In this document: positions 20,771 through 23,832 of the stretch, piece by piece
Position numbering within the stretch: position 1 is the first letter of the stretch
Layout of the letters: every line of letters begins with the position of its first letter
NCBI GenBank assembly: GCA_025351385.1
Contig: JANXWA010000025.1
Span: 62,001 to 126,000, forward strand
Length of the DNA stretch: 64,000 nt
Source: Acidimicrobiales bacterium
Lineage (GTDB): Bacteria > Actinomycetota > Acidimicrobiia > Acidimicrobiales > RAAP-2
Direction of reading: 5' to 3'
The notes under the pieces: generated by a model
Told to the model about the DNA's origin: nothing
Databases searched by the model: none
Seen by the model: only the letters and a program-made list of their open reading frames with translations
Made by a program: the position numbers and the translations under genes

Positions 20771-21871
20771 CTACTGGACGCGCACGGGCATGAGCAGGTA
20801 GCGGAACCTCACGTCCTCGACACCGTGCACCATGGCGGGCCGCACCGAGTCCGACATCTCGAGCACGACTTCGTCTCCGGGCACTGCCTCGATACCGTCG
20901 ATCAGGAAGCTCGGATTGAACGCAATGGTGATCTCTTCACCGTTGTAGTCCGCGTCCACGTTGTCCTCGACATCGCCGGCGTCGTGGCTCTGAGTGCGAA
21001 TTTCGACGGAGCGCTCTTTCATGGTCAGTCGCACCGAGGATGTGGAGTCCTTCGCGAGCAGCTTGGCCCGCTTCAGCGAGGTCAGAAGAGTGTCCTTGGC
21101 GACCCGTAACTGATTTGGGTAGCTTGCTGGGATCAGTTGAAGTACCGACGGATAGTTGCCGTCAATCAATCGTGAGGCGATACTTGTGCTCCCAACAACG
21201 AAGCAGATCTCAGCGTCTGTGAGGGTGACGCCGATAGTCGCATCCCCGTCTAGGGACGCCGCGGCTCGCTGGAGCTCCTGAAGGGCCCGTGCCGGTACCA
21301 GGAGGTCTTGCGAGCCCCCTATTCCTTGGACTTCCGGGACGTCGCGAACTGCCAATCGATACGAGTCGGTAGCGATGAGGCGAAGGGTTTCGTTGTCGGT
21401 GGTGAATAACACACCGGTCAACAGGGGACGGGCGTCATCATTCGCTGCGGCCCGCACAACTTGATTGAGACCTTGGATGAGATCGTTAGCAGCGATGGAG
21501 GTGAGCTGTCCGGTGACCGGGGGCAGCTTTGGATAGTCAACGACTGAGAAGGTCCGTAGCGAGAACTTCGCGCGACCCAGGGAGACCTCAACGGTCTCAT
21601 CGTTGCTGGAGATAGTGACGGCGCCAGCTTCCAAGGACCTGACGGCATCGACAATCAAGCGTGCGGGGACGACGGACGAACCGTCGTCGATGCCGATGAC
21701 GTCAACCGTTGTTCGTACCGTGATGTCGAGGTCGGTACCGGTGACTACCAACTGATTACCGGTCAGCGTCAACAGCACGCCCGACGATGCCCCGATGAGG
21801 CGTGTCGCGACCACGCGGCTCGCCGCACTGAGTGCCTCAACCAGGATGTCGCGCTCTGACTTGAACTTCAT
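20771..21871 (-). CDS. dnaN: DNA polymerase III sliding clamp (beta subunit)
   Basis: A 366-aa clamp with three repeated domains. Begins MKFKSERDILVEALSAASRVV and ends YLLMPVRVQ, the conserved C-terminal LMP(V/M)R motif. The ATG has AAAGG 9 bases upstream. It lies directly left of the oriC element and is oriented co-directionally with leftward replication. Confidence 0.97.
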   Translation of the reverse strand: MKFKSERDILVEALSAASRVVATRLIGASSGVLLTLTGNQLVVTGTDLDITVRTTVDVIGIDDGSSVVPARLIVDAVRSLEAGAVTISSNDETVEVSLGRAKFSLRTFSVVDYPKLPPVTGQLTSIAANDLIQGLNQVVRAAANDDARPLLTGVLFTTDNETLRLIATDSYRLAVRDVPEVQGIGGSQDLLVPARALQELQRAAASLDGDATIGVTLTDAEICFVVGSTSIASRLIDGNYPSVLQLIPASYPNQLRVAKDTLLTSLKRAKLLAKDSTSSVRLTMKERSVEIRTQSHDAGDVEDNVDADYNGEEITIAFNPSFLIDGIEAVPGDEVVLEMSDSVRPAMVHGVEDVRFRYLLMPVRVQ

Positions 21872-21928
21872 CGAACTGCCTTTCTTCGGTACTGAGGTTA
21901 CGGTGTGTTCTTGAATATAGAGAGGTCT

Positions 21929-21960
21929 AAGTAGTAGTAGGGCTGTGGATATGTGGATTA
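21929..21960. other. oriC: oriC basal unwinding element: DnaA-trios, GC cluster, two DnaA boxes
   Basis: In the dnaN-dnaA gap (21872-22121). Reading rightwards: trios AAG-TAG-TAG-TAG (21929-21940), GC cluster GGC (21941-21943), then DnaA boxes TGTGGATAT (21944-21952) and TGTGGATTA (21952-21960), each one mismatch from TGTGGATAA. This is the mirror image of the DnaA-box/GC/DnaA-trio order of the Bacillus basal unwinding system. The side beyond the trios (about 21905-21930) is comparatively AT-rich. Strand opening would therefore be expected towards dnaN. Confidence 0.8.
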
Positions 21961-22121
21961 CTCCGGAACCAACCTGATCAAACCCCTCTTTGGTGAAGCC
22001 GTACTGTACACACCCTTGTCGAGAATTCCCTCAACCATGGAAACTCAACCCTGAAGTGATGTGCACTACCCGGTGGTAAGCAGCCCTTAATCAACAGGGT
22101 CGTCCCAAGGTTGCGCACAAA

Positions 22122-23486
22122 CTATTCCCTGTTCTCCCCCTGCAGTCGTCGCTTCAGTTGGTTGACTTGTGCGAGGACCTCAGGGTTCAAAGTGATCTGC
22201 TCCTTGATCTTCTCAACACCGCTGATGACCGTCGTGTGATTGCGGCCGTCGAAGATTCGAGCGATCATCGGATACGAGTAGTTGTTCAAGAGGTCCCGGA
22301 TCAAGTACATCGCGATATGACGCGCGTGAACCAGGGGCCGGAGTCGTTTGGATCCGCGAACGTCTTCAACGGACAGGCCGTAGAAGTCAGCCACCACCGA
22401 CAGGATCGTCTCGGGCTTCAAGATGACCTGCTCTTGACCGAGGTTGGTGAGGTGGGTCTTGGCGAGCTCGAGAGAGATCGGCTCTTGGCGGAGGTTGGCG
22501 AAGGCCCTCAGCATGGTGATAGACCCCTCGAGCTCTCGGATGTTGTCGCGCACGCGATGCGCAATCCACTCCGCCACGTCGTTGGGCAGTGCGATGCCCT
22601 CTCGCTCGGCCTTGGAGCGCAGGATCGCGATTCTCGTCTCCAGGTCGGGCTGGTCAATCTCGGTGACGAGTCCCTGGAGCAGACGGCTACGGAATCGCTC
22701 CTGGAGGCCCGCAAGGTCGCGCGGTGAGCGGTCCGAGGTGAGCACAATCTGCTTTCCTTCGCCGTGGAGTGCGTTGTACGTGTGGAAGATCTCCTCGTGG
22801 AACGTTTCGCCGCGCGTCTCCATGAACTGGATGTCGTCGATGAGCAGCACGTCATTCTCGCGGTAGCGCTCGTGCAAGGCCAATTGAGTGCGCGTTTGAA
22901 TGGCACGGATGAAGTCGTTCAGAAACGTCTCGGTCGACACGTAGAGGACCTTGCGTCCCGGGTAGTTCTCTTGAACGTAGTTGCCAATGGCGTGCAGCAG
23001 GTGGGTTTTTCCCAATCCGGAGTTGCCGTAGATCATCAAGGGATTGTACGCACGACCAGGAGTTTCGGCGACCGATTGGGCCGCCGCGAAAGCGAGGCGA
23101 TTGGATGAGCCGGGCACGAAAGAATCGAAGGTCATGCGCGGATCGAGTCGCGCCGGACGGTCAACGCTCGGTACGAACGAGGCTGGCGGCGCCTCGACCT
23201 CGTCGGCCGGTTCGTCCACCGTGGCGTCGCTCTTCGTGGTGTCACTGAGCGTCAGAGACACCTGCACTTCGTGGCCGACCAACAGCTTCGCCTGCTCAGT
23301 GATGAAGGGCAGATAACGCTGCTGGACACGCAGCAGTTGAATCTGATTCGGAGCGCCGATCACAATCTGATTGTCGTGGTAATCCACAAGGCGCAGTGTG
23401 TTAAGTCCCGCCGCCCAAACTGCCTCGGAAGCGTTGCCACGTAAGGAGTCGCGCAAGGCAGACCAGATCTCCTCACCAGCTTGCAC
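22122..23486 (-). CDS. dnaA: Chromosomal replication initiator DnaA
   Basis: 454 aa. Domain I: IWSALRDSLRGNASEAVWAAGL...; a short acidic linker; AAA+ domain III with GNSGLGKTHLL (about 155), Walker B VLLIDDIQFME (about 213) and sensor residues; domain IV with the DnaA-box-binding signature RNHTTVISG near the C-terminus. The start is chosen at GTG 23486: GGAGGA lies 5 bases upstream and domain I begins immediately. The frame is open to 23672 and an in-frame GTG at 23522 exists, but the extra residues are not DnaA-like and the region carries a DnaA box. Confidence 0.96.
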   Translation of the reverse strand: MQAGEEIWSALRDSLRGNASEAVWAAGLNTLRLVDYHDNQIVIGAPNQIQLLRVQQRYLPFITEQAKLLVGHEVQVSLTLSDTTKSDATVDEPADEVEAPPASFVPSVDRPARLDPRMTFDSFVPGSSNRLAFAAAQSVAETPGRAYNPLMIYGNSGLGKTHLLHAIGNYVQENYPGRKVLYVSTETFLNDFIRAIQTRTQLALHERYRENDVLLIDDIQFMETRGETFHEEIFHTYNALHGEGKQIVLTSDRSPRDLAGLQERFRSRLLQGLVTEIDQPDLETRIAILRSKAEREGIALPNDVAEWIAHRVRDNIRELEGSITMLRAFANLRQEPISLELAKTHLTNLGQEQVILKPETILSVVADFYGLSVEDVRGSKRLRPLVHARHIAMYLIRDLLNNYSYPMIARIFDGRNHTTVISGVEKIKEQITLNPEVLAQVNQLKRRLQGENRE

Positions 23487-23514
23487 GGACTTCCTCCACA
23501 GATCGAACTTCACA

Positions 23515-23523
23515 TTATCCACA
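23515..23523 (+). promoter_or_regulatory. Consensus DnaA box upstream of dnaA
   Basis: A perfect TTATCCACA 29 bases upstream of the chosen dnaA GTG, within the dnaA-rpmH spacer. It may serve dnaA autoregulation or be part of the origin. Confidence 0.75.
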
Positions 23524-23697
23524 GGCAGATCGTCTGGACAAACAGCCGCTTTGTCCGTGGGGAGAGTCACCCTACACCTATTTGGGACGTCCCGCCGAGG
23601 GGGCAAGTCCCGTCGGGTAAGATTGCTCCCAGTAGCGCGCCAGCGACCCCCAGGGGGTACCGCGAAGCGCATCGAAACAGTTTGAGAAGAGGATTCC

Positions 23698-23832
23698 GTG
23701 AAGCGTACCTATCAACCGAACCAACGCAAAAGGGCGAAAACGCATGGTTTTCGTGCCCGCATGCGAACCCGTGCCGGCCGTGCCGTCCTGAAGGCCCGTC
23801 GCAACAAGGGCCGCCACCAACTGACGGTCTAA
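23698..23832 (+). CDS. rpmH: 50S ribosomal protein L34
   Basis: A 44-aa protein [19 protein letters not shown]..., basic throughout, with the invariant L34 N-terminus and the [16 protein letters not shown] centre, ending HQLTV. GTG start with AGAGG 5 bases upstream. First gene of the rightward rpmH-rnpA-yidD-yidC-jag-rsmG run, divergent from dnaA across a 211-base spacer. Confidence 0.97.

Follow-up and report, generated by a model that had tools for sequence, protein, structure and literature searches.

A predicted BUS-type unwinding module and an upstream phased motif in the dnaA-dnaN spacer of an actinobacterial genome

The spacer between dnaA and dnaN in the DNA analyzed here, a 64,000-nucleotide window of an actinobacterial draft genome, is very likely a chromosome origin, in which the stretch at 21929-21960 would serve as an unwinding module of the BUS (basal-unwinding) type opened by DnaA. 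The trios, the gene context, the conservation and the GC skew all support this reading, in agreement with the original prediction of such an oriC between dnaN and dnaA. The BUS plan would thereby extend to an uncultured peat-soil lineage of the actinobacteria, in which it appears to be ordinary. Furthermore, we observed a motif with the consensus A-N-C-W-G upstream of the module, which is absent from the original description. It may matter more than the module itself, as it is phased and kept across dozens of families and thus predicts a further origin-binding contact. Apart from DnaA boxes, trios and A+T-rich unwinding regions, few sequence elements are, to our knowledge, widely shared among bacterial origins.

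The Probable Origin Locus

The window covers bases 62001-126000 of the 196,651-bp contig C12, which belongs to a draft genome of 2.18 Mb (36 contigs, 97% complete). The host very probably belongs to the uncultured Acidimicrobiia of peat soils; a 28-base module pattern with 25 fixed letters matched six Acidimicrobiaceae metagenome contigs in a public collection, five of them with the isolate names palsa or bog. The genes gyrA, gyrB, recF, dnaN and dnaA lie in this order on the minus strand, with yidC, jag, a ParA-like ATPase and ParB to the right, and the gene order around the spacer agrees with the oriC-proximal cluster presented in PMC4285127. dnaN (20771-21871, minus strand) was assigned by a TIGR00663 match and dnaA (22122..~23490, minus strand) by a TIGR00362 match. 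The dnaA reading frame is open to 23672, and the gene likely starts near 23490, from where the matches of many relatives begin.

The putative oriC, or its main part, is the 250-bp spacer at 21872..22121. An origin between dnaA and dnaN has likewise been predicted in Kocuria rhizophila (PMC12500396) and described in Mycobacterium tuberculosis (PMC2607554), and the spacer is shorter than the 601-bp oriC of Kocuria, for which trios and two box arrays were predicted (PMC12500396). The suggestion that this could be a very compact origin did not hold up, since the median length, 275 bp for 33 spacers of the order and 297 bp for 29 spacers of the rest of the class, exceeds the 250 bp seen here by little and since five weak box-like positions in the spacer show conservation within the genus. 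Within the genus, 29 of the 30 spacers measure 246-258 bp, the thirtieth (L004) having been mis-measured.

The cumulative GC skew of C12 reaches its minimum at 77,346, that is, 6.6 kb from the module (~83,945 on the contig), with a weak mean skew of -0.016 (left) and +0.015 (right) on this single 196-kb contig. In a relative of which 243 kb were read (G114), the minimum is 11 kb from the module, and the curve stays flat over the 43 kb available to the right. A skew switch elsewhere had been named in advance as evidence against an origin at this place; a minimum 6.6 kb away, on one contig with weak skew, does not refute it. The skew fits an origin at this locus without pinpointing it, and the position of the module in the chromosome origin is given only by the gene context (the dnaA-dnaN spacer) and this local skew on one contig of a draft genome.

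Elements of the Predicted Unwinding Module

The DnaA-trios occupy 21929..21940 on the plus strand, where 5'-AAGTAGTAGTAG-3' reads 3'-GAT GAT GAT GAA-5' (CTACTACTACTT on the dnaA strand). They are followed by a 3-bp G/C spacer, GGC, at 21941..21943, by the trio-proximal DnaA box ATATCCACA at 21944..21952 (minus strand; plus-strand letters TGTGGATAT) and by the upstream box, or box 1, TAATCCACA at 21952..21960 (minus strand; plus-strand letters TGTGGATTA). Every base of the AAG-TAG-TAG-TAG trios, the GGC cluster and the two boxes cited in the original prediction is present, and the boxes are indeed near-consensus, each with one mismatch to TTATCCACA on the minus strand, and do share one base, 21952. 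On the dnaA strand, the order is TAATCCACA/ATATCCACA with one base in common, GCC and then CTACTACTACTT, which is the published element order of the Bacillus DnaA-trio system, as had been claimed. The module is therefore not mirrored, except relative to the window; it seemed to be read in reverse because the genes are on the minus strand.

The BUS search program (PMC8287927) looks for a DnaA box that is separated by no more than 16 bp from a run of three or more NAN trios. In the window, two boxes with one mismatch each (up to two are allowed in at least one box) are accompanied by four in-register trios, three of which are GAT, with 3 bp separating them from the proximal box and 11 bp from the upstream one; in the BUS survey, the distance from the main box to the trios peaks at 10-13 (PMC8287927). 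The arrangement differs from that of the program in the boxes, for which a gap of up to 3 bp is foreseen (PMC8287927), whereas here they overlap by 1 bp at a pitch of 8, and at a pitch of 7 in most of the class. Such closely spaced tandem boxes are frequent but not required. Membership in the BUS group stands despite the overlap, since the survey admits single boxes and describes the tandem as merely the most frequent arrangement, at 57% (PMC8287927).

The module resembles the incC BUS of B. subtilis (DnaA-boxes 6/7 plus trios) in its co-oriented tandem boxes, short G/C stretch and 3'-GAT-5' trios, as these are presented in PMC6669920, PMC8287927 and PMC10721633, and also in its location between dnaA and dnaN. 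The near-consensus boxes TAATCCACA/ATATCCACA differ from TTGTCCACA, the form given for M. tuberculosis and Streptomyces in PMC4285127. The dnaA-linked oriC2 of Clostridioides difficile has a trio string, CACCTACTACTATTACTACTATGA, that contains the same CTACTACTA core, but its trio run is longer; P1 nuclease revealed the unwinding of oriC2, for which both parts of the origin were required (PMC7561715).

A putative unwinding region lies next to the trios at 21890..21928. Its A+T-richness is only moderate: three 30-bp windows starting at 21890-21910 have an A+T fraction of 0.60-0.67, and the other 24 windows 0.43-0.57. Between the trios and the ribosome site of dnaN, a block, CACACCGTAACCTCAGTA on the dnaA strand (21890-21907), was seen by eye to be kept in most same-genus spacers; it contains no obvious DnaA box.

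Conservation of the Module

The genus set comprised the window and 29 of 36 relatives, after six without a DnaA match and one without the locus (G014) had been removed. The loss of the trios in relatives had been proposed as a finding that would count against the module. What we found is that CTACTACTAC is exact in 29/30 genus spacers, window included, and that the thirtieth carries CTACTACTGC, with one change. The trio-proximal box has a mean of 6.9/9 matches over the 25 genus sequences that are ungapped there, and the upstream box, which is degenerate in some relatives, a mean of 6.3/9 over all 30. The better conservation of the trio-proximal box in the genus differs from the BUS survey, in which the upstream box is nearer the consensus (PMC8287927).

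Could such short words have come together by chance, or be conserved for another reason? The single elements are short and degenerate, and even 7/103 reverse strands pass the score described below. On the other hand, the 2.18-Mb host genome contains the pattern TCCACA-N0..6-CTACTACTAC a single time. This pattern was matched in 28/198 genomes of the class, once in each except G167 and G247, compared with 3/198 for the backwards control (by count), and in 26 of the 28 it follows the dnaA match, with which it shares the strand, by no more than ~0.45 kb (the dnaA position is not listed for G127 and G167). Furthermore, a BUS-like score for two boxes plus trios, which was chosen together with its threshold of 36 after the genus alignment was seen, reached at least 36 in 78/103 phylum spacers but in only 1/2060 first-order Markov simulations. 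With a single genome occurrence, trios exact in 29/30 and 1/2060 simulated spacers passing, we rejected the chance cluster, which we regard as extremely improbable.

The 103 spacers are 62 from the class and 41 from the rest of the phylum (L122, L161, L165 and L171, with no usable dnaN start, were omitted). They include 22 of 24 genomes from other families (G049 and L060, which ends before dnaN, were set aside) and 15 of a further 30 loci, one per family. The score was passed by 27/33 spacers of the order, 25/29 of the rest of the class and 26/41 of the rest of the phylum, and 25/103 remained below the threshold. Together with the genus trios, these passes place the module at the same position in relatives. 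The G/C spacer measures 4 bp in 68/78 passing loci. The pitch of the boxes is 7 in 24/27 and 8 in 3/27 passing spacers of the order; 7 in 22/25, 8 in 2/25 and 9 in 1/25 of the rest of the class; and 8 in 11/26 and 9 in 15/26 of the rest of the phylum. Overlapping boxes, with a pitch of 7 or 8 in 51/52 passing spacers of the order and class, are hence the rule in the class, and, given the gap of up to 3 bp in the search program, they represent a local variant of the BUS plan rather than a peculiarity of this genome. The idea that the distance from box 1 to the trios is invariant at 20 bp (pitch 8 with gap 3, pitch 7 with gap 4) was dropped, as the measured range is 19 to 22.

DnaA and the Proposed Opening Mechanism

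Residues 90-510 of the DnaA encoded in the window align with chain 8btg_A at 321 bits; we take 8btg to be the B. subtilis BUS cryo-EM entry, whose residues match those of the paper in letter and number. In B. subtilis numbering, the protein keeps E183, N187, I190, I193 and E228, while K222 is replaced by Arg, R202 by His, N196 by Arg and E223 by Gly. Alanine at N187, I190, I193, R202 or E228 leads to severe growth defects in B. subtilis. Four of these five growth-critical, trio-capturing residues are thus kept, a partial likeness to the B. subtilis BUS, and the exception is R202; according to the source of the mutant data, none of the trio-capturing residues is universally conserved. The replacements at R202, N196 and E223 speak against the BUS reading.

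The residue R202 contacts the trio guanine in B. subtilis. Its equivalent could be located in 29 DnaA proteins of the genus (not in L027) and is His in all of them. In other families of the order, it is Lys in 15/17 and Arg in 2/17, the stretch having been found in 17 of 23 loci. The genus retains the trio guanine despite the His at this position.

The letters, order, phase and conservation of these elements are observed here, whereas the following binding and unwinding steps are inferred. ATP-DnaA would bind both overlapping boxes through domain IV, and a filament of domain III would nucleate onto the plus-strand trios, in 3'-GAT-5' units. By capturing two bases per trio, the filament would force the strands apart to the left, in the direction of dnaN. 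That strands separate at the predicted BUS cannot be taken as proven for all actinobacteria, because in M. tuberculosis the DnaA-dependent opening was mapped with permanganate about 500 bp from dnaN (-500 to -518; PMC2607554).

A Phased Motif Upstream of the Boxes

The motif was recognized in the genus and wider alignments and reads GATCAGG in the window (21973..21979, minus strand). Counted from its first A, the motif precedes the upstream box by 18 bp and the trios by 38 bp. Within the genus, the motif block stands 38 bp before the trios in 24/30 spacers, 37 bp in 5/30 and 35 bp in 1/30, and A-N-C-W-G fits 29/30, L007 having ACTAGG. Other families mostly have GACCTGC or GACCAGC at the site.

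In 72 families, represented by one locus each with a score of at least 36, at least 60 bases upstream and box 1 called without reference to the motif, ACCTG was found in 21 at 17-19 bp ahead of box 1, and no 5-mer in any of 300 shuffles exceeded 8. In the 22 families outside the class alone, no 5-mer rose above the shuffles (6 vs a maximum of 6). The form A[CGT]C[AT]G is present 16-19 bp before box 1 in 19/27 loci of the order, 17/25 of the rest of the class and 10/26 of the rest of the phylum, against at most 3, 1 and 2, respectively, in any of twelve control windows. This strict form is absent from 16/52 loci of the order and class and 16/26 of the rest of the phylum, some of which have near variants, e.g., ACGCTGG.

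A less dependent test was a search of 394 class genomes, a set that overlaps the genomes already examined, for CTGTGGATTG-N1..31-CWGGT, with matches counted without requiring dnaA adjacency. Matches were obtained in 130 genomes, compared with about 27/394 for the backward control. Among 150 of the matches listed, 52 have a tandem box, and in these the motif stands at one spacing in 44/52, one base off in 3/52 and elsewhere in 5/52; the remaining 98 show many spacings, and 8 of them likewise have that one. As the search pattern fixes the box pitch at 7, the pitch-8 module of the window is not among the matches.

The phased motif, which does not resemble a DnaA box, is the new addition here and is common in the class; it is an extra upstream element compared with the BUS of B. 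subtilis as described. Whether the motif at 16-19 bp is a genuine, undescribed origin element of the opening machine, widespread in one class and part of the phylum and read by a non-DnaA protein or by DnaA in a new mode, we consider evenly balanced. Among the open-access papers listed for actinobacterial origins, trios and the GACCTGC word, we recognized no description of it. It was rejected as a DnaA box, its letters being unlike TTATCCACA, and it differs from the AdpA and MtrA sites, TGGCSNGWWY and GTCACAGCG, as tabulated in PMC4285127.

The nucleoprotein complex at the module probably makes a second sequence-specific contact at the motif (21973-21979), and the partner there would be either a bending or regulatory protein or DnaA in an unrecognized mode. 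We favor the former, a functional analogue of IHF or of origin regulators sitting between the upstream boxes and the BUS boxes, although we hold it tentatively, at somewhat less than an even chance. The spacing between the motif and box 1 is fixed at about two helical turns, and ~33 bp beyond the motif (~51 bp before box 1) the loci of the order and class (e.g., L075-L113) have a conserved reverse-oriented box core, GTGGA or GGGGA, so that the motif sits between the BUS and further box-like words upstream. Elsewhere in the phylum, the most frequent word near -51 is a forward CCACA in 6/22 families, no more than shuffles reach. The dissimilarity to the actinomycete AdpA and MtrA sites of PMC4285127 also fits such a protein. 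Against it, no candidate protein emerged, the motif is short, and, as noted above, 16 of the 52 loci of the order and class do not have it in its strict form.

A non-canonical contact by DnaA, for example by a filament protomer that reaches back to the upstream duplex, is rather unlikely by comparison. The distance from the motif to box 1 is kept at box pitches of 7, 8 and 9 (e.g., L058, L001 and L153), which speaks for such a contact, and DnaA3 in the B. subtilis cryo-EM model also touches double-stranded DNA behind the boxes (PMC10721633). However, the letters do not resemble a box, and the motif lies farther off than an immediately adjacent contact. Least probable of the three, and improbable in our view, is that the motif belongs to a promoter or RNA element for dnaN and not to the origin. 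Its position on the coding strand ahead of dnaN would suit this, as would the likeness of TTGAYC to a -35 hexamer, but no sigma-70-like promoter or terminator was detected in 21850-22140 (the scan covers that promoter type only), and Rfam gave nothing over the gathering score in 21700-23800 and nothing up to E 0.1 within the spacer. With neither kind of feature overlapping the motif, both were rejected. Moreover, the motif keeps its phase relative to the DnaA boxes, which themselves stand at variable distances from dnaN.

Further DnaA Boxes

The original prediction noted that few other boxes lie in the spacer. This is correct for near-consensus boxes but not at up to two mismatches, where two more appear beyond the tandem pair, and the genus conserves five weak box-like positions. 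These are CTGTACACA at 22004..22012 (plus strand, 3 mismatches; genus mean 5.9/9, at least 7 matches in 9/30), TTCTCGACA at 22017..22025 (minus strand, 2 mismatches; 6.5, 17/30), TAGTGCACA at 22060..22068 (minus strand, 3 mismatches; 6.5, 18/30), TAATCAACA at 22088..22096 (plus strand, 2 mismatches; 6.3, 18/30) and TTGCGCACA at 22111..22119 (plus strand, 3 mismatches; 6.7, 16/30). The means may be compared with a maximum of 3.4 when each sequence was shuffled, a lenient null, since shuffling destroys conservation and any conserved word can exceed it; further positions, with means down to 4.4, did so as well. The name weak boxes is accordingly a provisional one, because each position has two or three mismatches in the window. 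According to PMC4285127, T. maritima provides the only analyzed origin with boxes that exceed two mismatches, which speaks against the three positions with 3 mismatches.

Two stronger boxes are associated with dnaA itself, namely the consensus box TTATCCACA at 23515..23523 (plus strand), just upstream of the likely gene start, and TAATCCACA at 23380..23388 (plus strand), inside the 5' part of the gene. A pair of boxes 133-137 bp apart at the dnaA start was found in 24/30 genus loci (L030 is cut before the region) and may reflect a bipartite origin, of which it would be the second part, or autoregulation. The weaker positions in the spacer and the boxes upstream of dnaA would probably feed and regulate the assembly of DnaA.

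On the opposite strand of dnaA, Rfam gave a match to RF02674 AsdA, an antisense RNA of the dnaA mRNA, at 22951-23030 (plus strand) with 37.5 bits, below the gathering score of 52; this is possibly nothing but conserved dnaA coding sequence.
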